In this document: piece after piece, positions 18,238 through 32,532 of the stretch
How positions within the stretch are numbered: position 1 is the stretch's first letter
How the letters are laid out: every line of letters starts with the position of its first letter
DNA from: Oceanicaulis sp. BBD 1991-10
GTDB taxonomy: Bacteria; Pseudomonadota; Alphaproteobacteria; Caulobacterales; Maricaulaceae
DNA: 40,310 nucleotides
Reading direction: 5' to 3'
Assembly: GCA_001657295.1 (NCBI GenBank)
Contig: LYSW01000022.1
Coordinates: forward strand, 1-40,310
Made by a program: the position numbers and the translations under genes
The notes under the pieces: generated by a model
What the model was told of the DNA's origin: nothing
What the model saw: only the letters and a program-made list of their open reading frames with translations
Databases searched by the model: none

Positions 18238-18279
18238 ATGGAGCACAGCCTTGAACTGAGCACCCGCGGCGACCCATGA
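18238..18279 (+). CDS. Possible 13-codon leader peptide coupled to the HlyD gene
   Basis: ATG at 18238 opens a frame MEHSLELSTRGDP ending in TGA at 18277-18279. That stop shares ATGA with the start of the HlyD-type gene at 18276. A strong ribosome site GGGGAAGGA (18225-18233) precedes the mini-frame, while the HlyD ATG has none of its own. The arrangement looks like translational coupling. Evidence is limited to spacing and overlap. Confidence 0.35.
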   Translation: MEHSLELSTRGDP

Positions 18280-19523
18280 CCGATCTGTTTCGAAAACAAG
18301 CTGTCCAGCACGCCTTGCGCGGCCGCCTTGACGGCGCCGTGGTGCTGGCCATCCCGTTGCCGGTGAAGCTTCTGGGGCTTCTCGCCGCGCTTATCGTGGC
18401 GGGCATCGTCATCTTCGCCGCATTATCAAGCTATGCGCGGCGCGAGACGGCGCCGGGATGGCTGACCCCCGACCAGGGCGTGGTGCGGGCGGCGGCGCTG
18501 TCCGGCGGCCAGGTCGCTGAGATTTTGACGCAGGAAGGCGCGTCGGTTGAACCGGGCGCGCCTCTGGCGCGGCTCCGGCTTGATCAGGACACTGAAGAGG
18601 GCGCAGCCGGCGACCAGATCCTGAACGCCTTGCGGGCCCAGGCGGACGCGGCGCGAGAAACCGCCCGTACGGAGATCGCCCGCCTTGAAGCGGAGGCCGC
18701 ACGCCTGGCGACCGCCCTTGCCGGGCTTGAACGCGAGCGCGCCGAGGTTCGCGATCAGATCGCTTTGCAGCGCGAGCAGGTGGAGTTGGCCGAGGAGCAG
18801 ATTCAGCGCGCGGTTCAGCTCTCCGAACGCGGCTTTCTGTCGGGCCGCGAACTTGACGACCGCCGCCAGCGCGCGCTCAGCGCGCGCCAGTCCCTGGCCG
18901 CGTTCGAGCGCAATCTCGCCACGCTCGACCGCCAGATCGCCGACACCCGCTCGGCCATTGAAACGACGCCGCTCGAGATTGAGGCCGCCGAGGCGCGCGC
19001 CCGGTCCGCCGAAGCCTCTTTGCAGGAACGGCTCAGCGGTCAGGCGGCGCGCACCCGCGCCCTGGTGGTCGCGCCGACCGCCGCCCGGGTCGCGGCCCTG
19101 CCGGTCCGGCCCGGCCAGACCGTCGGCCCCGGGGAGACGATCGCGGTTCTGGTGCCCGATGGCGGCCGGCTCATCGCGGAGCTTTATCTGCCGACCCGCG
19201 CGGCCGGATTTATCGAGCCCGGCCAGGAGGTTCAGCTAAGAGTCGACGCCTTTCCGCATCAGCGTTTCGGCACCGCCCCGGCGACGATCACCTCGGTCTC
19301 GCGCACCGTGCTGGCTCCGAATGAAGCCGCGATTCCCGGCCTTGCCTTGTCCGAGCCGGTATTCCGTGTCGAGGCGGCGCTGGAGTTCACCGAAATCGAG
19401 GCCTATGGCGAGGCGATTCCCTTGCAGCCCGGCCTTCTGGTGTCCGCGGACATCATCATCGATCGGCGCAATCTGATTGAATGGCTGTTCGATCCGCTAT
19501 TCGCGGCGGGCCGGCGCAGCTAG
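18276..19523 (+). CDS. HlyD-family adaptor of a peptide exporter
   Basis: 415-residue membrane fusion protein of a type I secretion system. A short cytoplasmic N-terminus (1-27) leads to one membrane helix (about 28-50). A lipoyl-like half domain follows (GGQVAEILTQEGASVEPGAPL, about 74-95), then a long coiled-coil hairpin (about 110-250, rich in Glu/Arg/Ala). The second lipoyl half (VVAPTAARVAALPVRPGQTV, about 265-285) and beta-barrel regions complete it. It resembles the CvaA-type partners of bacteriocin exporters, bridging the inner-membrane ABC exporter to TolC. The C39 ABC exporter at 21924 is its obvious partner. The start shares ATGA with a mini-frame upstream. Confidence 0.9.
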   Translation: MTDLFRKQAVQHALRGRLDGAVVLAIPLPVKLLGLLAALIVAGIVIFAALSSYARRETAPGWLTPDQGVVRAAALSGGQVAEILTQEGASVEPGAPLARLRLDQDTEEGAAGDQILNALRAQADAARETARTEIARLEAEAARLATALAGLERERAEVRDQIALQREQVELAEEQIQRAVQLSERGFLSGRELDDRRQRALSARQSLAAFERNLATLDRQIADTRSAIETTPLEIEAAEARARSAEASLQERLSGQAARTRALVVAPTAARVAALPVRPGQTVGPGETIAVLVPDGGRLIAELYLPTRAAGFIEPGQEVQLRVDAFPHQRFGTAPATITSVSRTVLAPNEAAIPGLALSEPVFRVEAALEFTEIEAYGEAIPLQPGLLVSADIIIDRRNLIEWLFDPLFAAGRRS

Positions 19524-19536
19524 GCGAAGAGGCCGC

Positions 19537-19668
19537 TTAGGCGGCGGCTGCGCAGAGCGCCGCAAGCCCGGCTCCGGCGGCGTCGCCGGCGCCAATCGCG
19601 CCCCGCGCGGCGATCGCGTCCATTTCGTCCAGCGTCAGCCGGCGAACACCCTCGAACTCCCCCGTCAT
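19537..19668 (-). CDS. Short peptide precursor with double-glycine-type leader
   Basis: 43-codon frame from ATG 19668 to TAA 19537-19539. It starts MTGEFEGVRRLTLDEMDAIA and continues with ARGAIGAGDAAGAGLAALC and then four alanines. RRLTLDEMDAIA aligns with RELTMNEIDAVY in the precursor at 21236, position by position. Both then have a glycine-ending processing site (ARG here, YGG there) and a GDAA motif. The core after ARG is only 20 residues, with one cysteine (C39). It lies 14 bases after the HlyD stop, on the other strand. It may be a second exported peptide or a shrunken paralogue. Upstream AGG gives only a weak ribosome site. Confidence 0.6.
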   Translation of the reverse strand: MTGEFEGVRRLTLDEMDAIAARGAIGAGDAAGAGLAALCAAAA

Positions 19669-20235
19669 CGACGGCCTGGCGCGCCTCTTGATTGAGGATT
19701 GCACAGAAGCCGCGCGGCTAGGCTCGCGACGCCTTCTGCGGCGTGACTTAATAAATCAGGACGGATTCAGCCCCAAAATCCAAGCGCTTCTCCCGCCACG
19801 GCCCGCATCAATCCCAGTCGATGCTGCGTCCGGGCGCCGGGCCGATGACGCCGCGAGTTCGCCGCGCCGCCGACACGGACGCATCGTCCACCTCAGGTCA
19901 CGAGCGAAAGCGCTCGGCTCGCTCTCAAACCAGCGACTGGCCGTTGTCGCGGCGCGGACGGACTCCGCTTCGGTCTGCGAGATTTCCCGTCTGTTTGCGT
20001 GGCTTAGTTGACGCCGCCTCGGAACCCCGCAGCGTGCTGGCGCTCCCCTCAGGCGCGCAAAGCACTTGAGCGTTATCGCCTTTAGCGCGTAGGCTGAGCG
20101 TGTGAGTTGTCGATGCAGTCACGAGGAAGCGACGCTCTTGGTCTGGGCGCCAAGGGAATGCTGAAGCGGGCCATGTATCGAAATAGCCCGAGTCATTCGC
20201 GTTAGACACCCTTACAGTGGAAGGCGACGACGAGT
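19669..20235. other. Gene-free interval between peptide gene and AT-rich island
   Basis: I find no convincing gene here on either strand. Frames of 60-107 codons exist, but they lack ribosome sites and recognisable features. A short inverted repeat ACGCC/GGCGT flanks 19730-19745. Base composition moves from GC-rich to AT-rich near 20210, marking the left edge of the cargo island. Confidence 0.5.
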
Positions 20236-20631
20236 ATGAATGCTAATGATATAATAAAGAACATGTCACAGGAAATCTGGGACGCGCGAAATCTTGACGC
20301 ACTTGAGAAGTGGTATTCAAGTGAATTCGTAAACTATGTTGGTTCCAATAGGCATGTGACTTCTCTAGACACATTTCGGTAAGGGCTGCAGATTATCTTT
20401 TCTGGGTTTTCGGATACGAAGCTCAGGATAATAGAACAGATTTCCAACGGAGAAATGGTTGCATCACGCGTCATGCTGCATGGCATCCATTCAGGTGATT
20501 TTATGAATATCGCGTCAACACAAAAAGAGATCGCCATTTCCGGAAGTCGATTTGACCGTGTTCGCGACGGAAAAATCATAGAACATTGGTCTATGTTTGA
20601 TTTCTTTTCGCTCATTCAGAAAATCCAATAA
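20236..20631 (+). pseudogene. SnoaL-like protein interrupted by an in-frame stop
   Basis: One frame of 132 codons runs from ATG 20236 to TAA 20629-20631, broken only by TAA at 20380-20382 (codon 49). The second part has the hallmarks of SnoaL-like/ester-cyclase folds: VASRVMLHGIHSGDF, then IAISGSRFDRVRDGKIIEHWSMFD. The first part (QEIWDARNLDALEKWYSSEFVNYVG) fits the N-terminal helices of the same fold. A single substitution, for example GAA, AAA or CAA to TAA, would explain it. A sequencing error is also possible. Composition is AT-rich, like the next two genes. A role in the peptide locus is unknown. Confidence 0.65.
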
Positions 20632-20736
20632 AACTTATTTCTTAAGTTCGAGGTTAAACAAATGATACTATACAATAAAAACGGAATTGTTGGATACAAT
20701 CCGATGTTATCTTTCACGCATACTCTGGAGGGAGAT

Positions 20737-21171
20737 ATGTCGTATGTGCTCTTTCCCGTTTCAGAGGGCACGCATTGGCGAGTCATTTTTACCACCGTAT
20801 TGTCGGTTTCGGGATTCTGCGTGATCGCCTTTAGTCATCATTTTGATAGCGTTAGCGCATATGGATTGCTCGGCGCCGCATTATTGCTTTGTGTTAGTAT
20901 GTACATATTCGTGCAAGGATTATTAAAAAAGAGAAAAATATTCACAAGTAAACCGAAGCCAGTTGGAAGAGCGCCTGACATATACGCTATTGAATGGTTT
21001 TTCAACTTTGCTTTTGCGGCGTTCGCGGTCTTGATGAGTGCAAACTATTTTACGAGTATTTGGATAAAATCGGCTCTGATTATTTGTTCTTCATTGCCAG
21101 CTTTAATGGCGACTATTCCATTCTGGGGCGACAGGCTCTTCACGGCCGCGCAGCGAAATGAATCAGATTGA
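20737..21171 (+). CDS. Four-helix membrane protein, candidate immunity protein
   Basis: 144 residues from ATG 20737, which has a very strong ribosome site, GGAGGGAG (20727-20734). An earlier ATG at 20662 would add 25 residues and has a weaker GAGG. Four hydrophobic helices lie at about 15-34, 42-63, 84-105 and 110-130, with a Lys/Arg-rich cytoplasmic loop (KKRKIFTSKPKP) in the middle. I recognise no family. It is AT-rich and ends 65 bases before the bacteriocin-like precursor. Small membrane proteins beside class II-type bacteriocins are commonly immunity proteins, which is my inference. Confidence 0.7.
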   Translation: MSYVLFPVSEGTHWRVIFTTVLSVSGFCVIAFSHHFDSVSAYGLLGAALLLCVSMYIFVQGLLKKRKIFTSKPKPVGRAPDIYAIEWFFNFAFAAFAVLMSANYFTSIWIKSALIICSSLPALMATIPFWGDRLFTAAQRNESD

Positions 21172-21202
21172 CGCATATTGATTGTCATTGTATCTCCTGA
21201 AA

Positions 21203-21219
21203 GGCGACTAATAGTCGCC
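21203..21219. promoter_or_regulatory. 17-bp palindrome upstream of the peptide precursor
   Basis: GGCGACTA and TAGTCGCC are exact reverse complements around a single A. The site ends 17 bases before the TTG start of the precursor. It could be an operator or an RNA hairpin near the ribosome site. No regulator gene is adjacent. Confidence 0.5.
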
Positions 21220-21235
21220 GTTTATCAATGGAGAA

Positions 21236-21469
21236 TTGAATAAGCGCGAGCTTACGATGAATGAGATTGACGCCGTGTATGGCGGCCTCGACAAGGGTGA
21301 CGCGGCCGCAATGGCTGCGGTCCTTGGCGTTGGCGCCGCCCTTACAGGAACAACCGCGCTGGCGGCAGGCGCCACGGGCGTCGGTGCTCCGGCTGCGCTC
21401 GCTGCAGGGGCGGTGTCGGCCGTGATGGGCCTCGCGGCGGCCGGGCTGGCGCTCTACGCGGCGACCTAG
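21236..21469 (+). CDS. Double-glycine-leader bacteriocin-like precursor
   Basis: 77 residues from TTG. The leader MNKRELTMNEIDAVYGG fits the double-glycine type (E-L-x4-I-x3-GG) removed by C39 peptidases. The predicted 60-residue core begins LDKGDAAAM and is almost wholly Ala, Gly, Val, Leu and Thr. It has no cysteine and has two glycine-zipper-like hydrophobic stretches separated near APAALAAG, so it should insert into membranes like microcin V or class II bacteriocins. An in-frame TAG at 21212 limits the start. ATG 21257 would leave only a 10-residue leader. GGAG at 21230-21233 is unusually close to the TTG. The position between the HlyD and C39 exporter genes supports export. Confidence 0.8.
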   Translation: MNKRELTMNEIDAVYGGLDKGDAAAMAAVLGVGAALTGTTALAAGATGVGAPAALAAGAVSAVMGLAAAGLALYAAT

Positions 21470-21493
21470 CCGCAGACGCTTTTTCCGGAGGTT

Positions 21494-21525
21494 GAGAATG
21501 GGATCCGTCCAGTGATCCCATTCTC
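21494..21525 (+). terminator. Strong hairpin after the peptide precursor
   Basis: GAGAATGGGATC (21494-21505) and GATCCCATTCTC (21514-21525) form a perfect 12-bp stem with an 8-base loop, 24 bases after the precursor stop. No U-tract follows, so it may act as an RNA-stabilising 3' end or a partial terminator that keeps precursor mRNA in excess of exporter mRNA. Confidence 0.55.
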
Positions 21526-21923
21526 GACGGCCGTGCTGGAGCAATGGTCGACCGGGTCCTTGCTCAACCGAGCTGACGGATTGGCCCATCGCCTGTCGGC
21601 ACGATCGAAGGCGGCCAGGCCCTTCAGGGCAGTCCGTCGCCTCCCGGTTTTGCAGGCCGCGGCGAAAGTCTCACCCGATATACACCTGGTTAAATACAAC
21701 CTGGCTCAACGTCAGTCTGACGAGCCGCTTCGGCAGTCATCACGCTCGCCTCATCATAATCTCAGCCGAGTGATTTCCAGTCGCCATCAGCGAGAATCAT
21801 CAGGCCTCAGCGGATTGCGCAGCAATGCCTGAGAGTATGGGGCGTCACGATTCCCCGTTCGCCGCCCGCGACATTGCATCAGAGCTTGTGGCCCGCCGCC
21901 TGAAGCATTAACTCCGCTGAGGC
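21526..21923. other. Gene-free interval before the exporter gene
   Basis: No supported gene. A GTG-initiated frame (21512-21832) has no ribosome site and overlaps the hairpin. A short repeat ACCTGGTTAAATACAACCTGG-like dyad lies around 21685-21706. No further leader resembling LTxxEIDA was found on either strand. Confidence 0.45.
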
Positions 21924-24065
21924 ATGATCGCGCCCTGGGGGAAAGGCATGACCCGACACGATGCTCTCGACCTGTTCAAAGGCCGCCGCCTACCCATCGT
22001 GATCGGCGCGGAGGCGGCGGAATGCGGCCTGGCTTGCATGACCATGATCGCGCGTTGGCATGGCCATGACGTGGATCTCAACGGATTGCGCCAACGCTCG
22101 GGCCTGTCGATCTCCGGCGCCTCGCTGCGCACGCTCATGCAGATGGCCGACGGGCTGGGTCTGGCGACGCGGGCGCTGAAGGTCGAGCTGGAGTCGCTGC
22201 AGAAGGTGCGCACGCCCGCCATCCTGCACTGGGACCTCAATCACTTCGTCGTCCTGGCCAAGGCCGGGCGCAAATCCATCACCATCCACGATCCCGCGGT
22301 CGGCCGGCGCACGCTGAGCCTGGAAGAAGCCTCGAAGCATTTCACCGGCGTGGTGCTCGAGCTGACCCCCAGCGATGAATTTCAATCCATCGAGGCCAAG
22401 CGGCCGGTCAAGCTGTCCAGCCTCTGGTCCAAGATGCAGGGATTCTGGAGCTCGTTCGGGCAGATCATCGCCCTCTCCATCGTCCTGCAGATCGCAGTCT
22501 TCGCCGCGCCCTTCTTCAACCAGCTGGTGATCGATGAGGCGATCGCGCGCTCCGATGTCGATCTGCTGGCGGTGCTGGCGGTCGGGTTCGGCCTTCTCGG
22601 GCTTATCAGCGTCGGCCTGACGGCGCTGCGCGCCTACGCCTTGCAGGTGATCGGCCAGCTGATGAGCTTTCAGATGGTCGGCAATCTTGTGCGCCACCTG
22701 TTGCGGCTCACGACCAGCTTTTATGAGAAACGCCATGTCGGGGACATCCTGTCCCGCATTCAATCCACCCGTCCGATCCAGGATGCGCTGACCCGGGGCG
22801 CCGCCACCGTCGTGATCGACGGGTTGATGGCGGTGATCGCCCTGGTGATCCTGTTCTTCTACTCGGCCACGCTGACCCTGGTGGTGCTCGCGGCGCTGGT
22901 GCTGAGCCTGATCGTCACCTTCGCCTTCTACCCGATCACGCGGCGGCGCTCGGAAGAGGTCATCGTCGCACAGGCCAAGGAAAGCACGCACATGATCGAA
23001 AGCGTGCGCGCCTCGCGCACGCTGCGCCTCATGGGGCGGGAGGCGGAACGGGAAGCGGCCTGGCGCAATCTCTTCGCCGACGCGATCAATGCGGAGTTTT
23101 CGGTCGCCCGCTTTGAAATCATCCGAACCGCGCTGCAGGGGGCGATCACCACCGTCCAGACCATTGTGGTGGTGTATCTGGCCGCCCGCATGATCATCAA
23201 TGGAGACGGGTTTTCAGTCGGCATGCTGTTCGCCTTTCTGAGCTTCCGGCAGACCTTCACGGACCGCGTCATCGCGCTGATCAACGAGGCGTTCAATTTC
23301 CGGCTCCTGACCCTGCACCTGGAACGGATCGGCGACATCGTGCATGCCGAGCGCGAACCGGTTCCCGCCCAGGAACCGCCGGAGGATGCGCCGCCGCCCC
23401 AAGGCGCGATCGAAGCGCGGGGCTTGCGGTTTCGATACGGAGAGGGCGACCGGCTGATCCTGGACGGCGCTGATCTGACGGTGGCGCCGGGCGAGTTTCT
23501 CGCCATCACCGGGGCCTCCGGCGGCGGCAAATCAACTCTGCTGAAGCTCCTGCTCGGCCTGTATGATCCCGAAGGCGGCGAGATATTGCTCGACGGCCAG
23601 CCGCCCGCCGTCACGGGCTGGCGCGCCTGGCGGCGCCATATCGGGGTCGTGGCCCAGGACGACCAGCTGCTCTCCGGAACGATCGCCGACAATATCGCCT
23701 TCTTCGACCCGGATATGGATTTGGCGCGGGTCCAGGCCGCCGCCCAGAAGGCCGAAGTTCACGCGGACATCTCCAGGATGCCGATGCAGTATCTCTCGCT
23801 GGTCGGCGACATGGGGTCGGCCCTGTCCGGCGGTCAGCGCCAGCGGGTGCTGCTTGCGCGCGCGCTCTATCGCCAGCCGTCAATTCTGATCCTGGATGAG
23901 GGCACCGCCAATCTCGACGCGGAGACCGAGGCGCAGATCGCCGACACGGTCTCGGCGATGCCCATCACGCGCATCGTGGTGGCCCACCGTCCCGCCCTGG
24001 TCCAACGCGCCGACCGTGTCGTGCGGGTCGAGGGCGCTCGGATCGTGGACGTCAAGGACGTCTGA
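21924..24065 (+). CDS. C39-peptidase ABC exporter (bacteriocin type)
   Basis: 713-residue exporter that removes double-glycine leaders and moves the peptide across the inner membrane. The C39 peptidase domain (about 20-150) has C34 in EAAECGLAC, H107 in LNHFVVL and D123 in HDPAVG. The Gln usually found six residues before the Cys is G28 here, which is odd because it contributes the oxyanion hole. Six membrane helices follow (about 165-460). The nucleotide-binding domain has Walker A GASGGGKST (K536), LSGGQRQRVLLARAL and Walker B ILILDEG (D658-E659). ATG 21948 after GGGGGAAAGG is an alternative start. It pairs with the HlyD adaptor at 18276. Confidence 0.93.
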   Translation: MIAPWGKGMTRHDALDLFKGRRLPIVIGAEAAECGLACMTMIARWHGHDVDLNGLRQRSGLSISGASLRTLMQMADGLGLATRALKVELESLQKVRTPAILHWDLNHFVVLAKAGRKSITIHDPAVGRRTLSLEEASKHFTGVVLELTPSDEFQSIEAKRPVKLSSLWSKMQGFWSSFGQIIALSIVLQIAVFAAPFFNQLVIDEAIARSDVDLLAVLAVGFGLLGLISVGLTALRAYALQVIGQLMSFQMVGNLVRHLLRLTTSFYEKRHVGDILSRIQSTRPIQDALTRGAATVVIDGLMAVIALVILFFYSATLTLVVLAALVLSLIVTFAFYPITRRRSEEVIVAQAKESTHMIESVRASRTLRLMGREAEREAAWRNLFADAINAEFSVARFEIIRTALQGAITTVQTIVVVYLAARMIINGDGFSVGMLFAFLSFRQTFTDRVIALINEAFNFRLLTLHLERIGDIVHAEREPVPAQEPPEDAPPPQGAIEARGLRFRYGEGDRLILDGADLTVAPGEFLAITGASGGGKSTLLKLLLGLYDPEGGEILLDGQPPAVTGWRAWRRHIGVVAQDDQLLSGTIADNIAFFDPDMDLARVQAAAQKAEVHADISRMPMQYLSLVGDMGSALSGGQRQRVLLARALYRQPSILILDEGTANLDAETEAQIADTVSAMPITRIVVAHRPALVQRADRVVRVEGARIVDVKDV

Positions 24066-24223
24066 TCCTGCCGGACGATCCCGCCCGGCGCCCCGCAGAT
24101 CTTTGCGCGATGCGGCCGGGCCCGTGACATATCCATGACGGCCCGCCGGTTTTGCTGGTGATGTGGCCTCGCATTTGCTTCTCTTGAGGCGGGAATGGCC
24201 CGGAAGAGGTCATTTCGGTGGAT

Positions 24224-24252
24224 GTCGCCGCGAAATCTCCGGCGACGAGGGG
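24224..24252 (+). promoter_or_regulatory. Hairpin abutting the adhesin ribosome site
   Basis: GTCGCCG (24224-24230) and CGGCGAC (24240-24246) form a 7-bp stem with a 9-base loop. The ribosome site GAGGGG (24247-24252) begins at the very next base. Such a hairpin could modulate translation or protect the 5' end of the very long adhesin mRNA. Confidence 0.4.
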
Positions 24253-24258
24253 ATTGCA

Positions 24259-27200
24259 ATGCGCAAGTCGAACCTGCTCGTTACGGCGGGCGTCAGCCTC
24301 GTGCTGGCCGCGCCCGGTTTCGCCTACGCCGCGCCGAGTGAGAAGCTCGCCGCGGTCACCAAGGTGGAGGCCGCCACTGGCGTTAGCGACCGGGAACGAA
24401 TCAGTCGAAGCCGCGGGCGCGACAGCGCCCAGGGTGACGCCGCAGCCCTCAACGCGGTCCTGGAAGAGCTGGCCGCCTTGCGCTCCGAGCTCGCCGCCAC
24501 GCGTGACGAGCTGGCGGAGCTGCGTGCAAGCGCTCGCTCACAACAAGAATACCAGGCCGCGCAGCGAGCGAACGCTAGCCGCTATGAGCGCTACGCCGAG
24601 CCGGCCTTCCTGGCCGTGCTGGCCGGCGCCGTCGTCGCGCTGGCCGCTGAAGAAGATGACGTCGTCGATCCGCAGGCGCGCGCCGTGCTTCAGGCCGCCG
24701 TGGACGCCATCGAGGTGCTCCAAACCGAGATCGAGATTCTGCGCGCACCGCCTTTGCCCGAAGCGGGCGCCCAGGCGGCCAATGTCGGCGACGGCTGTAA
24801 TGACGGGTCCGGCTCCGGCTCTCTGCAGTGCGGCGATCTGGCGGACGCAAGCGGCACCAGCGGTGTCGCCATCGGTGACGGCGCGGTGGCCAGCGCGAAC
24901 TTCACCACGGCGGTGGGCCGCCTGGCGGAGGCCACTGGCCAGAATTCCGTCGCGGTCGGCAATATCGCCGACGCCACCGCGCAGGACACGGTCGCGGTGG
25001 GCGGCGGCGCTGTCGCCAGCGCCGAAGATTCGACGGCCATCGGCGCGAACGCCACCGCCAGCAGCACGATTTCCGGCGGCGCGACCGCGATCGGTTCAGA
25101 CGCCACCGCCAGCACCATCTCCGCCACGGCCGTGGGCGCGGGCTCCACCGCCAGTGGCGGCGGCGCGGCGGCTTTGGGCCGGGACAGCGTCGCATCGGGA
25201 CAACGCGCGCTTGCGCTGGGCATTAGCTCTGACGCCACTGAGACCGGCGCGGTCGCCATTGGCGGCGTTGCGCAAGCCACGGGTGAGGGCGCGATCGCGA
25301 TCGGCGATGATGTGGATGGCAATAATGCGGGCGCCGCGGCTTCCGCGTCCGGAGCGATCGCCATCGGCGAAGACAGCGCGGCGTCGGCGACGAATGCCCT
25401 GGTGATCGGGTCGAACGCCGGTTCGGCCTCCAACAACACCATCGTGCTGGGCGCGAATGCGTCCGCCAATGGCAGCTTCGTCACCAATGCGATTGTGATC
25501 GGCGAGAGTGCGTCGGCGAACAATCTGGCCAGCGGCGCGGTCATCATCGGGCGTAGCGCGACGTCGAACGCCAATGACACAGTGGCGATCGGCGATGACG
25601 CGTCGGCGACAAACAGCGATGCTGTGGCTTTGGGCGCGTCCGCGTCGGCGACGGCTTCGGGCGCGATCGCTTTGGGTGCGGATTCGCTCGCCAATGAGGC
25701 AAACACGCTCTCGGTGGGCCGTTCCGGCAACGAGCGTCAGATCGTCAATCTCGCCGACGGCGACATCGCCAGCGGCTCGACCGATGCCGTGACCGGCGGC
25801 CAGCTCTTCACAACCAATGAGAATGTCGCGCAGAACGCCACAGACATCGCGGCGCTGTCGGCCACCGTGGATTATGTGGGCATCAACTCAACCGGCACAG
25901 CGGCCAGCGCAACGGGGACGGACGCGGTCGCCATCGGTGAGGGCGCGGCCGCCAGCGCCGCTGGCGCCATCGCTATGGGCGAAAGCGCCGTCGCCTCCAG
26001 CGTCGACGCGGTCGCCATCGGGCGCGGCGCTGTGGCGTCCGGTTCGACCGCGGTGGGCGGCGGGGCGCAGGCGACCGGCGCGAACTCGGCCGCCTTTGGC
26101 CAGAACGCGACGGCAGCCGGTGATGATTCCTCGGCGCTGGGGGAAAACTCCACGGCGAGTGCGTCTGATGCGACCGCCGTGGGCGAAAGCGCCGAGGCGA
26201 GCGCGACGCAAACCACCGCTGTCGGTTCCGGGGCCACGGCAACCGGTAGCAGCGCGACCGCTGTCGGTTTCAACGCCGATGCGACGGCGAGCGACGCGAC
26301 CGCGTTTGGCAATGGCTCCAGCGCAGCTGGTGCGGACTCCACGGCTTTGGGTGCAGGCGCTGCGGCAGTTGCCGACGCCGTCGGTGTCGGCTCTGGCGCG
26401 CTGGCCGCCGGTGAGCGCTCGGTGGCGCTGGGCCGTACGGTGGTTGCCAGCGGTGAAGGCTCGATCGCCATCGGCAGCGATGGCGATGACACCGACATCA
26501 TTGGCAGCCCGAGCATTCAGATCGGCGCCCAGGCGACGGGCGATTTCGCGATTGCCCTGGGCGCGGACGCCAACGCTGCGGGTACAAGCTCGGTCGCTAT
26601 CGGTGACGGGGCGGATTCGTCCGGTGAAAATTCGACGGCGCTGGGTGACAGCGCGACGGCCAGCGGCATCAACGCCGTCGCTCTGGGTCTGAACGCCGTG
26701 GCTTCGGGCGCGGAATCCACCGCGGTGGGTGATGGGGCCAGCGCCACGACGGACAATGCGACCGCGCTCGGCAACGCGGCGTCGGCGACGGGGCTGGACG
26801 CCACGACGCTGGGCGCCCTGTCTGAGGCGAGCGGTGATTTCTCCACCGCTGTTGGCACGGGCGCCATCGCGGACGCGGTAGAAGCCGTGGCTATCGGCGA
26901 CACCAGCCAGGCCTCCGGCATCGCCTCTGTGGCGGTCGGCTCCCTGGCGTTCGCCGATGCCGACAACACAGTCGCCATTGGCGGTGATGCGGACGGTGAC
27001 GGCTTTGGCGCGGTCGCCGTCGACACCGAGGCCACCGCCATCGGCGCGGACGCTGTGGCGTCCGATGACGATGCGACGGCTGTGGGTCACAACGCCCAGG
27101 CGACGGCCGAGAACACCACCGCTGTGGGCGAAGGGTCTCGAGCCAGCGAATTTAACGCCAGCGCGTTTGGAGAAAGCGCCGTGGCCAGCGGAATCATCTC

Positions 27201-30200
27201 GACGGCGCTCGGCAATGACGCCGACGCGACGGGCATCGGCTCGGTCGCCGTCGGCGCCTTCGCGGCGGCCATCAGTGACGGCGCGATCGCCATTGGTGCG
27301 GACTATGACGCAGACGGCACGGGCGCGCTGGCCTCCGGGCTGGATTCCCTGGCGATCGGCGGCGACGCGCTGGCGTCGGGCTCGGAAGCCCAGGCGATCG
27401 GCTGGCTGTCCCAGGCGACGGGCGATCAGTCCATCGCTCAGGGCTGTGAAGCCGTGTCGTCCGGAGACGGATCCATCGCCATCGGCATGAGCGAAGCCTG
27501 CGACGACGCCGACGCCAACGCCGGCGCGCAAGCGACCGCTGACGGCGCGATTGCGATGGGTGAGGCGGCCGTGGCCGGAGGCACGGATTCCACTGCGATT
27601 GGCGCTGGCGCCTCGGCAACCGGAAACAACGCCGCCGCATTTGGCGGTAGTGCAGAGGCGTCTGGCCTTAACTCAATTGCGATCGGGTCAGGTGCAACAG
27701 CGAGCGCAAGCGCATCGCTGGCGATGGGAGATAACGCCGCCGCCAGTGGCTTTAACGCCATTGCGATTGGTCAAAACACGACCGCGACCGACAACACGGC
27801 GATCGCCATCGGTGCTGTGTCCGACGCGACTGCGCAATTCTCTGTGGCCATGGGCCTTGGCGCATTGGCGTCTGAACAAGACGCCATCGCCATTGGTCGA
27901 GGCGCTGCTTCGCAAGGGTCAAGTGCGCTCGCTTTTGGCTTCGGCAGTGAAGCGACCGGCGCGCAATCCATGGCCCAGGGCTGTTTCTCCGACGCCACCG
28001 GCGACGGCGCCATCGCCATCGGCGGCGCCGAGCTGTGCGACGGCAGCGATGACGGCGCACAAGCGACCGCGGATGGCGCCGTTGCGATGGGTGAGAGCGC
28101 GGCTGCGAGCGGGCTGAGTTCAATTGCGATGGGCGAAGGCGCGTCTGCGAGCGAAACTCTTGCTACGGCCATCGGCCAGAACGCGGCGGCCAGCGAGTTT
28201 GGCGCGCTGGCGTCGGGCGCGCAGTCCGTCGCAAGCGGAATTTCCGCGACGGCCATTGGATACTCGGCTGATGCGACCGGCAGCGACGCCGTCGCCGTCG
28301 GCGAACACAGCCAGTCCAGCGCGATTGGCAGTGTCGCCATTGGCGGTGACATCACATCTGACGGCATCGGGGCTTCGGCCAGTGCCGACTACTCGACCGC
28401 GGTCGGCGCTGAGGCAGGCGTATCCGGACAGGCGGCAAGCGCCCTGGGCTTCCGGGCTGATGCGTCCGGCATCGGCGCAGTCGCCATCGGCGGCGATGGC
28501 GATCTTGACGGCACCGGCGCCACCGCAAGCGCAGCAAGCGCCATCGCCATTGGGGATGACAGCGCCGCCAGCGGATCCGCGGCGGTGGCCCTGGGCCGCG
28601 GCGCGGACGCCGGCAGCTTTGGCGCGATCGCCGTCGGATCGGGCGCCGCATCCAATACCAGCTCGATTGCGATCGGCCTGGGCAGCAATGCGTCGGCGCT
28701 GGATTCGGTGGCGCTGGGAACCAGCGCGACCGCGTCGGGTGATCTGTCCGCGGTGATCGGCTTTAGCAGTTCGGCGAGCGGCTTCAGCTCTGTGGCCCTG
28801 GGGACCAACGCCACGGCCAATTTCGACAACTCCATGGCGCTGGGCGGCTCGACTTCAACGACGCGCGCCAACCAGATCGTGCTGGGCACGGCGAGTCATA
28901 CGCTGACCGTTGCGGGCATCCCGACGGCGGCCGCCACTGCGGCGCAGGGCGCGGTCGACGGCTTCGTCACGGTGGACGCGGATGGTAATCTGGCGTCGGA
29001 CGGCGGCGCGGCGCTGGCCAATATCGCCGCGCTGCAAACGGCGACAGCGGATCTGGACTATTTTGCGGTGAACTCCACCGGGACCGCCGCGTCAGCCACG
29101 GGCACGGATGCGATCGCCATCGGCGAGGGCGCAAGCGCGACCGGCTGGGGCACGGTGGCCATCGGTCTGAATGCGCAATCCAGCGGCGCGATCGACTCCA
29201 TCGCCATCGGATGGTCGGCGAACGCGTCCGCCAACAGCGCCATTGCGATCGGCGCGGACACCTTCGCGGCGCAAGATGGGACAGCGCTCGGCGATTTCGC
29301 CAGCGCCGGCGGCACACAGTCGACCGCCATCGGCCACTTCAACTCAGCCGGCGGCGTCCGGTCCCTGGCCATGGGCTGCGGGGCGGAGTCCAATGGGACG
29401 GGCTCGATTGCGATCGGCTCCGGTCAAACCTGCGCTTTTGGCCCTCACGGCCCGAACGCCAACGGTGACGAGGCCATAGCGATCGGCGATCTGGCGAATG
29501 CGAACGGGGCGAGCGCCATCGCATTCGGCGCCGATTCCAGCGCCAACCAGGATGACGCCGTCGCCATCGGCCGCAATGCGCGGGCGAATTTAACGGCGTC
29601 GGTTGCGATCGGCGCCGGCGCCGCGACCACCCGCGCCAACCAGATCGTGCTGGGCACGGCAGGTGAGACGATCACCATCGCCGGCATCCCGACGGCGGCG
29701 GCGACGGCGGCGCAAGGCACGGTGACCGGCCTGGTGACCACGGATGCGGACGGCAATCTCGCGTCGGACGGCGGAGCGCTTCAAAGCCAGGTGGACGGCA
29801 ACACCGCTGACATCGCCGCTTTGGTCGTAGCCTCGGGCAGCACGCCCTATCTGGCGGTGAATTCCACCGGATCGCCCGCCAACGCCAGCGGCGACGACGC
29901 GGTCGCGATCGGCGAAAACGCTCAGAGCAGCGCTGAAGCCAGCATCGCCATGGGCCGCGATTCTGAAGCCTCCAACACTGGCGCGGTCGCCATCGGCGAC
30001 GGCGCTGTCGCGTCAGGCTCCACGGCCGTGGGCGCCGGCGCGCAGGCGACCGGCGCGGACAGCGCCGCCTATGGCATGAACGCCCTGGCGACCGCGGCGT
30101 CGGCCACGGCGCTGGGCGAAAACGCTTCCGCCGCCGCAGCGCAGGCGACGGCGGTCGGCGAAAGCGCCAGCGCGTCCGGGATCGCCGCGACCGCGCTGGG

Positions 30201-32532
30201 TCAGGGCGCGGCGGCCGGCTTTGACGGCTCGATGGCCTTGGGCGCCGGCGCCAGCGCATCGCGCGCCAATCAGATCGTTCTGGGCACGGCGTCTGAGACC
30301 CTGACGGTGGCGGGCGTGACCAGCGCGGCCTCGCAGGCGGCTCAAGGCGCGATCGACGGCGTGCTGATAACCGATGCGGACGGCAATATCGCTTCGGACG
30401 GCGGGGCTCTGCAGGCCCAGGTCGACGGCAATGCAAGCGACATCACGACGAATGCCGGAGACATCGCCGCCAATGCGTCAGATATCTCCACCAACAGCAC
30501 CGATATCGCTACGAATGTCACCGCGATCTCCGACAATGCGGCGCTGATCGCGGCGAATACGGCGGATATCTCGACCAATGCAGCCGACATCTCCACCAAT
30601 GCGACCGGCATTTCAGACAATGCCGCGCTGATCACCGCAAATACGGGCGACATCACCCAGAACACCGCGGACATCGCCGTGAACGCCGCCGATATTGCGG
30701 CGCTTCAATCCGATGTCGGCACGCTGGATTTCGTGGCGATCAACTCCGACGGCGGCGACGCCTCGGCGACGGGTGAAGACGCGATCGCCATCGGCGAGGA
30801 CGCGGATGCGTCGGGTGATGAGAGCGTGGCTCTGGGCCGCGGCGCTTCGGCGTCGGGCGCAGGATCGCTGGCGATCGGGGCGGGCGCTGCGGCGGACTTC
30901 GCCGACGCCATGGCCATCGGCGCCGGCGCCATCGCCAGCCGAAACAATCAGATCGTGATCGGCACGGCGACCCAGACCCTGACCGTGGCGGGCCTGCCCA
31001 GCCAGGCGTCGCGCGATGCGCAGGGGACGGTCACCGGTTTTGTGACCACCGACGCCGACGGCAATCTGGCCTCCGACAATGGCGCGGCCCAGGCTCAGAT
31101 CAATCAGAACGCGGCCGACATCGCCCAGAACGCCAGCGATATCGCCGGGGTGCGGGCCGGCCAGAGCTCCATTCCCTTTATCGAGGTGAACTCCTCCGGC
31201 GGGTCGCCGACCGCCAGCGGTCAGGACGCCATCGCGATCGGTCAGGGCGCCCAGGCGACCAGCGACGGCGCGGTTGCGATCGGTTTGAACGCCATCGCAT
31301 CGGGTTCCACCGCTGTGGGCGCCGACTCTGAAGCCAGCGGCACGGATGCGGCGGCCTTTGGCGAAGACGCCAAAGCCACGGGTGAACAGGCCACGGCTTT
31401 GGGTGAAGACAGCGAAGCCAGCGGTGAAGATTCAACCGCCGTCGGCCAAGGCGCCGTCGCCAGCGGCGACTTCTCTCTCGCCTTCGGGCGCGGGGCTGAG
31501 GCCAGCCATGACAACGCCATGGCCATCGGCGCCGGCGTTGCGACCTGGCGGGACAATCAGATCGTCGTCGGCACGGTGCTGCAGACGGTGACCCTGCCCG
31601 GCCTGCCCAGCCAGGCTTCGCGCGATGCGCAAGGGACCGTGGACGGCTTCGTCACGACGGACGCCGACGGCAATCTGGCCTCGGACGGCGGGGCGGCCCA
31701 GGCGCAGATCGACGGCAATGCGGCGGGCGTTGCGGCCAATGCGGCCAATATCACCGCCACCAATAATGATCTGACCCAAGTCCAAAACGATGTCGCAGCC
31801 AACGGCACGGCCATCGCGTCCAATGCCGGGGACATTGCGAACAATTCCGCAGCGATCTCCACAAATACAGGCGGCATCGCGGTGAACGCGGCGGATATCG
31901 CCTTGTTGAAGGCGGGCGTATCCGGAGACGGGTCGCGCTTTATAGAGCTGGAAAATCAGGTCGATGACCATGAGGGCCGGATCACCCGGAACGAAGCGGA
32001 CATCGCCGATAATCGGTCGGATATCGACGCGAACCGCGCCGATATCGACTCCAACACCAGCGCGATCGCGGCGACGAACGCCCGTGTGGACGGCCATGAA
32101 ACCCGGATCACGGCGAATGAAACCGCGATCACCAGCAATACCGCGACCCTGGTCACCCATGGCCGGCGGATCAGCGCCAATGAAGCCAATATCGCAGCGA
32201 ACACCTCCGCGATCTCGATCCTTCAAAACGATGTCGCAGCCATGCAGGTGAGCGTCGAGCAGCTGGCGTTGCAGTCCAGCCGCAACGCCGGCCAGATCGC
32301 CCAGAACACCGACGGCATCGCAATCGCCAACGCGCTCTCCGGGTCGACCTGGCTGCAGTCCAATGAGGACGTCGCCTTCTCGGCCAATTGGGGACATTAT
32401 GACGGCTCGAACGCCATCGCCTTCTCGGCGGCGCGGCGGATCGATCACCGCTTTTCGGCGAATGTGGCGGTCGGCTACGCCGACCAGACCGGCAAGGTCG
32501 GGGCCCGGGCGGGCGTGCGGATGGGATGGTAG
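24259..32532 (+). CDS. Giant trimeric autotransporter adhesin (YadA-like)
   Basis: 2757 residues from ATG 24259, preceded by GAGGGG. An earlier in-frame ATG at 24163 lacks a signal-like start. There is a signal peptide of about 25 residues and a coiled-coil segment (about 70-165). Very long YadA-type head repeats follow, of the form AIGxxAxASGxxAxAxG. Neck/connector units NQIVLGT...TVAGIPTAA recur at about residues 1535, 1791, 2000, 2227 and 2429, each followed by TDADGNLASDGGA. Heptad stalks of the type DIxxNAx occupy about 2058-2152 and 2481-2690. The YadA anchor (about 2695-2757) ends in an aromatic Trp. It should form a surface trimer for adhesion or biofilm. Cysteine pairs at 1063/1081, 1242/1260 and 1707/1725 are unusual. 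Confidence 0.95.
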   Translation: MRKSNLLVTAGVSLVLAAPGFAYAAPSEKLAAVTKVEAATGVSDRERISRSRGRDSAQGDAAALNAVLEELAALRSELAATRDELAELRASARSQQEYQAAQRANASRYERYAEPAFLAVLAGAVVALAAEEDDVVDPQARAVLQAAVDAIEVLQTEIEILRAPPLPEAGAQAANVGDGCNDGSGSGSLQCGDLADASGTSGVAIGDGAVASANFTTAVGRLAEATGQNSVAVGNIADATAQDTVAVGGGAVASAEDSTAIGANATASSTISGGATAIGSDATASTISATAVGAGSTASGGGAAALGRDSVASGQRALALGISSDATETGAVAIGGVAQATGEGAIAIGDDVDGNNAGAAASASGAIAIGEDSAASATNALVIGSNAGSASNNTIVLGANASANGSFVTNAIVIGESASANNLASGAVIIGRSATSNANDTVAIGDDASATNSDAVALGASASATASGAIALGADSLANEANTLSVGRSGNERQIVNLADGDIASGSTDAVTGGQLFTTNENVAQNATDIAALSATVDYVGINSTGTAASATGTDAVAIGEGAAASAAGAIAMGESAVASSVDAVAIGRGAVASGSTAVGGGAQATGANSAAFGQNATAAGDDSSALGENSTASASDATAVGESAEASATQTTAVGSGATATGSSATAVGFNADATASDATAFGNGSSAAGADSTALGAGAAAVADAVGVGSGALAAGERSVALGRTVVASGEGSIAIGSDGDDTDIIGSPSIQIGAQATGDFAIALGADANAAGTSSVAIGDGADSSGENSTALGDSATASGINAVALGLNAVASGAESTAVGDGASATTDNATALGNAASATGLDATTLGALSEASGDFSTAVGTGAIADAVEAVAIGDTSQASGIASVAVGSLAFADADNTVAIGGDADGDGFGAVAVDTEATAIGADAVASDDDATAVGHNAQATAENTTAVGEGSRASEFNASAFGESAVASGIISTALGNDADATGIGSVAVGAFAAAISDGAIAIGADYDADGTGALASGLDSLAIGGDALASGSEAQAIGWLSQATGDQSIAQGCEAVSSGDGSIAIGMSEACDDADANAGAQATADGAIAMGEAAVAGGTDSTAIGAGASATGNNAAAFGGSAEASGLNSIAIGSGATASASASLAMGDNAAASGFNAIAIGQNTTATDNTAIAIGAVSDATAQFSVAMGLGALASEQDAIAIGRGAASQGSSALAFGFGSEATGAQSMAQGCFSDATGDGAIAIGGAELCDGSDDGAQATADGAVAMGESAAASGLSSIAMGEGASASETLATAIGQNAAASEFGALASGAQSVASGISATAIGYSADATGSDAVAVGEHSQSSAIGSVAIGGDITSDGIGASASADYSTAVGAEAGVSGQAASALGFRADASGIGAVAIGGDGDLDGTGATASAASAIAIGDDSAASGSAAVALGRGADAGSFGAIAVGSGAASNTSSIAIGLGSNASALDSVALGTSATASGDLSAVIGFSSSASGFSSVALGTNATANFDNSMALGGSTSTTRANQIVLGTASHTLTVAGIPTAAATAAQGAVDGFVTVDADGNLASDGGAALANIAALQTATADLDYFAVNSTGTAASATGTDAIAIGEGASATGWGTVAIGLNAQSSGAIDSIAIGWSANASANSAIAIGADTFAAQDGTALGDFASAGGTQSTAIGHFNSAGGVRSLAMGCGAESNGTGSIAIGSGQTCAFGPHGPNANGDEAIAIGDLANANGASAIAFGADSSANQDDAVAIGRNARANLTASVAIGAGAATTRANQIVLGTAGETITIAGIPTAAATAAQGTVTGLVTTDADGNLASDGGALQSQVDGNTADIAALVVASGSTPYLAVNSTGSPANASGDDAVAIGENAQSSAEASIAMGRDSEASNTGAVAIGDGAVASGSTAVGAGAQATGADSAAYGMNALATAASATALGENASAAAAQATAVGESASASGIAATALGQGAAAGFDGSMALGAGASASRANQIVLGTASETLTVAGVTSAASQAAQGAIDGVLITDADGNIASDGGALQAQVDGNASDITTNAGDIAANASDISTNSTDIATNVTAISDNAALIAANTADISTNAADISTNATGISDNAALITANTGDITQNTADIAVNAADIAALQSDVGTLDFVAINSDGGDASATGEDAIAIGEDADASGDESVALGRGASASGAGSLAIGAGAAADFADAMAIGAGAIASRNNQIVIGTATQTLTVAGLPSQASRDAQGTVTGFVTTDADGNLASDNGAAQAQINQNAADIAQNASDIAGVRAGQSSIPFIEVNSSGGSPTASGQDAIAIGQGAQATSDGAVAIGLNAIASGSTAVGADSEASGTDAAAFGEDAKATGEQATALGEDSEASGEDSTAVGQGAVASGDFSLAFGRGAEASHDNAMAIGAGVATWRDNQIVVGTVLQTVTLPGLPSQASRDAQGTVDGFVTTDADGNLASDGGAAQAQIDGNAAGVAANAANITATNNDLTQVQNDVAANGTAIASNAGDIANNSAAISTNTGGIAVNAADIALLKAGVSGDGSRFIELENQVDDHEGRITRNEADIADNRSDIDANRADIDSNTSAIAATNARVDGHETRITANETAITSNTATLVTHGRRISANEANIAANTSAISILQNDVAAMQVSVEQLALQSSRNAGQIAQNTDGIAIANALSGSTWLQSNEDVAFSANWGHYDGSNAIAFSAARRIDHRFSANVAVGYADQTGKVGARAGVRMGW

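Follow-up and report, generated by a model that had tools for sequence, protein, structure and literature searches.

Which peptide would be exported by the locus described here, and why does its gene lie between the genes of the adaptor and the exporter? The DNA analyzed (the window) is a stretch of 40,310 nucleotides (G000:C19:1-40310) from an 85-kb contig of Oceanicaulis sp. BBD 1991-10 (assembly GCA_001657295.1, contig LYSW01000022.1), the genome of which amounts to 3.2 Mb and is 98.95% complete. The genes encoding an HlyD-type adaptor and an ATP-binding cassette (ABC) exporter carrying a C39 peptidase domain enclose, in this window, the gene of a short precursor with a double-glycine leader. 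The locus is probably an export island for peptide bacteriocins, in which the cargo occupies an exchangeable slot. The genomes compared were 15 of the genus, 299 of the order and 385 of the class, G000 being the window's own genome.

The Export Genes and the Precursor

The exporter shows the Pfam domains Peptidase_C39 (E=1.3e-33), ABC_membrane (8.3e-40), and ABC_tran (3.9e-33). Its catalytic triad C34/H107/D123 (in the numbering of the 713-residue frame) aligns with that of two solved bacteriocin-transporter chains, and the spacing of the three residues equals that of CvaB (Cys32/His105/Asp121; PMC9746304). The ATG at 21948 is the more likely start of this protein, giving 705 residues. The adaptor scored 153.5 bits with the NCBIfam model type_I_hlyD, under the cut-off of 208.65. 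The cut-offs of the models for NHLP bacteriocin export (TIGR03796/TIGR03794) were not reached either: the exporter obtained 504 of 853.3 bits and the adaptor 47.8 of 156.2 bits. No other Peptidase_C39 match was detected in the genome, and three frames of the OEP (TolC) type were found elsewhere in it, with none in the locus.

The leader of the precursor reads ELTMNEIDAVYGG. The core consists of 60 residues, is rich in Ala and Gly, contains no cysteine and has a calculated monoisotopic mass of 5165.7; it includes two hydrophobic segments (grand average of hydropathicity, GRAVY, 1.27) and terminates in LALYAAT. A hidden Markov model (HMM) was built from five leaders, none of which belongs to the window locus (four come from the congeners G001 and G012, and the fifth lies on contig C38 of the window genome). 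The segment 21245-21286(+), lying in the precursor, ranked first among the 1059 six-frame segments of the window (E=2.9e-6), and 19609-19668(-) ranked second (E=3.5e-5); exactly these two places were obtained at E<=2, and the reversed-DNA nulls of six loci gave nothing under E=1.4. The first-pass annotation of this DNA had described an HlyD adaptor, a 77-residue double-glycine precursor with a cysteine-free Ala/Gly-rich core of 60 residues, and a C39 exporter; the domain matches, the leader HMM and the intact triad bear out this description and the positions given (Table 1), and the identification as a C39 peptide-export locus is well supported.

The precursor frame is nearly identical in the congener G009 (73 of 75 residues), with nonsynonymous and synonymous rates (dN and dS) of 0.019 and 1.29 and a ratio (omega) of 0.015; within the core, a single residue distinguishes the two peptides. 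Over 74 codons, 2, 0, and 40 differences were counted at codon positions 1, 2, and 3, respectively, and the frame is therefore strongly conserved; it has been under very strong selection. The adaptor (328/415 identical residues, omega 0.141) and the exporter (608/704, omega 0.123) are less constrained: no 74-codon window of either gene (0/630 in the exporter, 0/341 in the adaptor) had an omega as low as 0.0151, and a dN as low as 0.0189 occurred in 5 of the 630 exporter windows.

The core was said in the first-pass annotation to resemble no named bacteriocin, and indeed no family was reached in the Pfam, NCBIfam, PADLOC, and PDB searches: there was no NCBIfam match at E<=1 and no PADLOC match at E<=0.1, and the single PDB match had E=0.93. 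The precursor did not match the Bacteriocin_IIc family (PF10439) at E<=1, nor was that family found in the own genome, and there was no match with the lactobin A/cerein 7B family (TIGR03949). Relatives of the precursor at E<=0.01 were obtained in 9 of the 299 genomes of the order, namely the own genome, G009, and seven genomes with weak matches (E 0.00095-0.0089, within frames of 252-806 amino acids), which were taken to reflect low complexity. Spread by plasmids or phages was also considered, and no match to the precursor was found in plasmids, phages, or viral contigs.

Table 1. Positions of the features of the export locus in the window (aa, amino acids)
Feature	Position	Strand	Basis or remark
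HlyD-type adaptor (membrane fusion protein), 415 aa	18276..19523	+	HlyD_3 E=5.4e-17
43-aa frame beginning with a second leader-like sequence, GG missing from its usual position	19537..19668	-	just past the adaptor
SnoaL-like (NTF2-fold family) frame with in-frame stop at 20380-20382 (codon 49)	20236..20631	+	SnoaL E=2.1e-17 for the C-terminal piece
169-aa protein with four hydrophobic segments, candidate immunity protein	20662..21171	+	hydropathy
GGAG, likely ribosome-binding site of the precursor	21230..21233	+	aligns with AGGAGG ahead of the G009 precursor
Double-glycine precursor, 77 aa from TTG	21236..21469	+	leader 21236-21286, core 21287-21466
C39-peptidase ABC exporter, 713 aa as listed, likely start 21948	21924..24065	+	domain matches, catalytic triad

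The Adaptor-Exporter Gap in Related Genomes

Adaptor matches at E<=1e-10 were found in 7 of the 15 genomes of the genus, including the own one, and six of these are clear orthologues, which show 64-79% identity in the five congeners; the seventh, in G003, amounts to a partial or weak match (identity of 52% over a stretch of 137 residues and of 31% over one of 249). The identity of the exporter is 87% in G009, 81% in G001, 80% in G012, and 75% in G006, and in G008 only a piece at a contig end is available. The idea that this short exporter might be a pseudogene was rejected, since its frame reaches the end of the contig. C39 exporters of a second type, with about 50% identity, were also detected in L048 (G008:C6) and L020 (G003:C180), the adaptor being located on the opposite strand in the G008 locus of this type.

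The gap between the two genes measures approximately 2.4 kb in the window, 2.1-3.6 kb in G009, G001, G012, and G008, and 59 bp in G006. Outside the genus, 41 locus rows were examined, some of which correspond to the same place fetched twice; in all 11 loci with the adaptor upstream on the same strand, the gap amounts to 3-135 bp, and in seven of these 11 a regular expression detected a precursor within 600 bp upstream of the adaptor. Since the gap is short in G006 and in the loci from outside the genus, the filled gap looks derived in this genus.

The contents of the gap differ between the congeners. The window and G009 share a plus-strand cassette composed of a SnoaL-like gene, the gene of a 169-residue membrane protein with four hydrophobic segments, and the precursor gene. 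In G001 and G012, the gap contains minus-strand modules with nearly identical leaders and differing glycine-rich cores, followed by small hydrophobic frames; in G008, it contains truncated leaders and hydrophobic frames without any core; and in G006, no leader was found at E<0.1 in 19.5 kb. The first-pass criterion, conservation of the precursor in relatives that keep the exporter, thus gives a mixed result: G009 has this precursor, G001 and G012 carry other glycine-rich ones, G008 retains remnants of leaders, and G006 has none at that threshold. That the contents differ across the five congeners points to exchangeable cargo rather than to a chance frame.

This replacement by unrelated cores bears on the possibility that the core serves as a signal, with a transporter of the ComA type exporting it as a pheromone. 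The strong constraint on the core would suit a signal, and the exporter has ComA as one of its solved relatives. A length of 60 residues with two hydrophobic segments is, on the other hand, long for a pheromone, and the four neighboring genes scanned encode CobW, an epimerase, a YadA-type adhesin, and an Na/H exchanger, with no sensor kinase among them. With the cargo exchanged in the congeners as well, a signaling role is very improbable.

Repeated and duplicated DNA accompanies the modules. G012 has three copies of the DNA around the leader, and G001 and G008 have two each; the remaining 12 of the 15 genomes of the genus gave no match to it at E<=0.001. Truncated minus-strand leaders also occur in G009 and G008, the remnant in G009 being 59 bp long with 78% identity to G012 (leader HMM E=3.1e-8), and the minus-strand frame at 19537-19668 of the window is probably likewise the relic of an older cargo module. 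A 403-bp stretch of G001 comprising the leader, intergenic DNA and the 5' end of the exporter is present twice, at 92% identity, as are the terminal 121 bp of the adaptor in G009, at 92.6%. In the G001 module farther from the exporter, the core is gapped relative to that of module A of G012, and the partner region, read by eye, consists of two overlapping frames corresponding to one in G012. Taken together, the repeated leaders, duplicated ends, and truncated modules look like footprints of the capture, displacement, and decay of cargo.

The genome of the window organism also carries an intact orphan module not linked to the locus, at C38:53633-53956(-) (L051 7634-7957), which has a GG leader, a glycine-zipper core with two cysteines and then a 77-residue partner with two hydrophobic segments. 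Compared with module A of G012, 68 of 93 residues are identical in the core and 34 of 75 in the partner, and the type of core pairs with the type of partner; here, too, the core tends to be better conserved than the partner. At E<=1e-6, the matches listed for this type-1 core (C38, G012 module A, and G001 module 2) came from 2 of the 299 genomes of the order, that of the window and G001, and did not include G012. Four of the other module cores (G001 module 2 was left out) contain 13, 9, 6, and 11 GxxxG motifs, with P values of 0.000, 0.010, 0.075, and 0.003 against shuffled sequences, that is, a clear excess in three of the four and not clearly in the core with P 0.075. G001 module 2 approached the Bacteriocin_IIc family (25.4 of 27.1 bits, below the gathering score) and TIGR03949 (17.3 of 21.5 bits, below the curated cut-off), and one G001 module gave a weak match with MccV (E=0.078). 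In G012, another double-glycine frame follows the exporter at a distance of about 4 kb, at L036 16082-16192(+) (leader HMM E=0.0019).

Partner Genes and the State of the Window Copy

The two genes preceding the precursor are conserved to a lesser extent than the precursor itself: 72 of 131 residues of the SnoaL-like protein and 88 of 169 residues of the membrane protein are identical in G009, dS being not estimable in either case. The SnoaL-like frame of G009 is uninterrupted (SnoaL E=1.8e-23). The 169-residue protein has no Pfam or NCBIfam match and no relative among solved structures at E<=1, nor was any match obtained in plasmids. It was found in 2 of the 299 genomes of the order; in the class sample, matches occurred in 4 of 385 genomes, consisting of its own and three weak ones (E 1.2e-4 to 4.2e-4), each with 2-5 internal stops, which were taken as chance. 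The G+C content of the SnoaL-like and 169-residue genes is 40.7 and 42.5% in the window (20236-21171) and 48.2 and 46.4% in G009 (L034 6654-7588), that of the precursor being 69-70% in both.

The position aligned with the start codon of the G009 precursor is not a start codon in the window. In G009, the start is preceded by AGGAGG, and in the window, the TTG sits 2 nucleotides past GGAG. Because the SnoaL-like frame is interrupted and the start codon of the G009 type is gone, the window copy may be poorly expressed or not expressed at all; decay of the cassette may have begun, unless the assembly is faulty here. In G012, the exporter frame (L036 9596-11731, +) is interrupted by an in-frame stop at codon 491, counted from L036 9596, and the system of this strain may therefore be broken, again unless the assembly is wrong.

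It might be argued from these lesions that the plus-strand cassette of the window no longer works and that the exporter is kept for the C38 module, which is intact and has a GG leader; since the genome contains a single C39 exporter, the orphan would have to share it. The precursor, the 169-residue protein, the adaptor and the exporter all have open frames, however, a TTG start exists, and each of the two lesions might stem from a faulty assembly. For Moraxella, a producer strain has been described in which the start codon of the peptide gene is altered (PMC2761928), and the altered start in the window is therefore no proof of loss. We consider this alternative unlikely.

Proposed Function and Route of Exchange

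The locus is most likely a bacteriocin system of the class II microcin or Cdz-like kind with exchangeable cargo, in which the membrane proteins would confer immunity. In the mechanism that we propose, the adaptor and the C39 exporter constitute a fixed chassis: the exporter would remove a leader ending in GG or GA and export the core, with a TolC-type outer-membrane protein supplied from elsewhere in the genome. The adaptor-exporter gap would be the site where cargo modules, each composed of a precursor and a membrane-protein partner, are gained, displaced, and lost, and the exchange probably proceeds via recombination at the 3' end of the adaptor, the 5' end of the exporter, and the repeated leader DNA. 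The slot of the window would thus contain both the plus-strand cassette with its Ala/Gly-rich peptide of two segments and the old leader relic on the minus strand. Most likely, the membranes of related bacteria are where the peptide inserts, and the membrane protein would protect the producer; a membrane-active bacteriocin with a membrane immunity protein is the likeliest function. The first-pass annotation had assigned the set to microcins and class II bacteriocins, and beyond the export locus itself, which is confirmed, this bacteriocin role is plausible and is what we infer. The cassette partners, the minus-strand relic, the arrays in the relatives, the orphan module, and the signs of decay had not figured in that annotation.

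Several observations weigh against this interpretation. A precursor of the window type is present in only one of the five orthologous congener loci, that of G009. Joint change of the peptide and its immunity protein might be expected in a bacteriocin, and the far greater conservation of the precursor (73/75 residues) than of the candidate immunity protein (88/169) counts against such a role. The core contains no GxxxG motif (1.4 expected), and its two sub-threshold Pfam matches (best E=0.074) give no function. The window copy carries two lesions, the SnoaL-like stop and the altered precursor start, and with the stop in the G012 exporter, these indicate that the systems of the genus are frequently damaged.

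The conservation of the core beyond that of its partners, together with its hydrophobicity (GRAVY 1.27), could also be accounted for if the peptide remained on the surface of the producer as an aggregating or adhesive element rather than mainly a toxin, since self-assembly would explain the constraint; CdzC is retained on the surface and aggregates (PMC5380434). CdzC also kills, however, the window core lacks a GxxxG zipper, and in the modules of the congeners, each core is paired with a membrane protein, as in toxin-immunity pairs. Such a surface role is quite unlikely.

The bacteriocin interpretation can be extended, as a tentative proposal to which we would give less weight: modules would be taken into the slot and pushed out of it at the 3' end of the adaptor, the 5' end of the exporter, and the leader repeats, in the same way as the toxin tips of contact-dependent inhibition (CDI) systems, and the cassette of the window and G009 would represent a new class of module, in which a nearly invariant Ala-rich hairpin peptide is combined with a SnoaL-like and a four-helix membrane protein jointly protecting the producer.

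If cargo exchange is confirmed, the genus illustrates how one cargo of a Gram-negative peptide exporter comes to be replaced by another, the intermediates having been preserved as leader repeats, duplicated ends of the exporter and the adaptor, membrane-protein genes left as orphans, and an unlinked orphan module. Cargo swapping in type I bacteriocin systems would then become directly testable, and several candidate peptide-immunity pairs would be available. In two cases the constraint on the peptide exceeds that on its partner, the reverse of what a simple arms race would lead one to expect.

Genomic Surroundings

In the stretches surrounding the five congener loci, nothing matched any window open reading frame (ORF) of at least 100 residues outside the locus at E<=1e-15, and the upstream epimerase was found in only one of the 15 genomes of the genus, the own one; the unit therefore has different surroundings in the different genomes. 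Adjoining the exporter, at 24163-32532 (+), is a frame of 2789 residues with a YadA anchor, in which 15 stretches of YadA head repeats exceeded the threshold; its product is a trimeric autotransporter adhesin, which was not found in the congener loci. Its inclusion in the export system is unsupported, given the lack of window ORF matches around those loci.

Comparison with Known Systems

The locus belongs to a known kind, double-glycine peptide export, in a form in which cargo modules would be exchanged inside the adaptor-exporter gap. The literature searched, as far as its accessible parts go, contains no description of such an exchange, and the publications on Maricaulaceae bacteriocins and on Alkalicaulis report no such locus in their titles or abstracts.

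A close comparison is with the Cdz system of Caulobacter crescentus (CdzABCDI; PMC5380434), whose host belongs to the same order as the window organism according to GTDB. Both have a type I exporter with an adaptor, small hydrophobic Gly/Ala-rich peptides with leaders, and a small membrane immunity protein (here a candidate), and related strains with Cdz are reported to be alike in their secretion genes and to vary in their peptides (PMC5380434). The window peptide corresponds to the published definition in having 60-151 residues, a leader ending in G[G/A/S] and a type I exporter nearby, whereas the one or two glycine zippers (extended GxxxG) of that definition number zero in the window core (PMC5380434). 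Compared with CdzC/D by their description, this core lacks both GxxxG motifs and a polar C-terminus, and its assignment to Cdz was rejected on these two published grounds. The location of the cargo between adaptor and exporter and the SnoaL-like partner are further differences.

Class II microcins such as microcin V have in common with the window locus the precursor, the C39 exporter, the adaptor, and a small membrane partner nearby, which in the window is a candidate immunity protein; a TolC-type protein is encoded elsewhere (PMC9746304), for which the window genome has three candidate frames. The window carries the following features of this class: a short precursor with a GG/GA leader, an exporter with the C39 Cys-His-Asp triad, and an adaptor. 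The immunity proteins of the class are 51-216 residues long and usually have membrane helices (PMC9746304), and the membrane partners described here fall within this range and have the same membrane character. The cargo of the window lies inside the adaptor-exporter gap, in contrast, and its core does not match MccV. McbABCI of Moraxella catarrhalis likewise combines a pair of secretion genes with genes for a double-glycine peptide and small-sized immunity, but its cargo is single and fixed, downstream of the secretion genes (PMC2761928).

As regards the exchange of cargo, the blp region of Streptococcus pneumoniae also has bacteriocin and immunity genes that vary next to transport genes that are conserved, and leaders recombined between cargo genes, but it is Gram-positive, regulated by a peptide pheromone of its own, devoid of an adaptor, and carries cargo that is not homologous (PMC4860687). 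In CDI loci with orphan toxin-immunity modules, new modules displace the old, leaving fragments of the conserved gene and decaying pairs behind (PMC4927057); secretion by CdiA/CdiB and the lack of homology make this a likeness in the way of working only.

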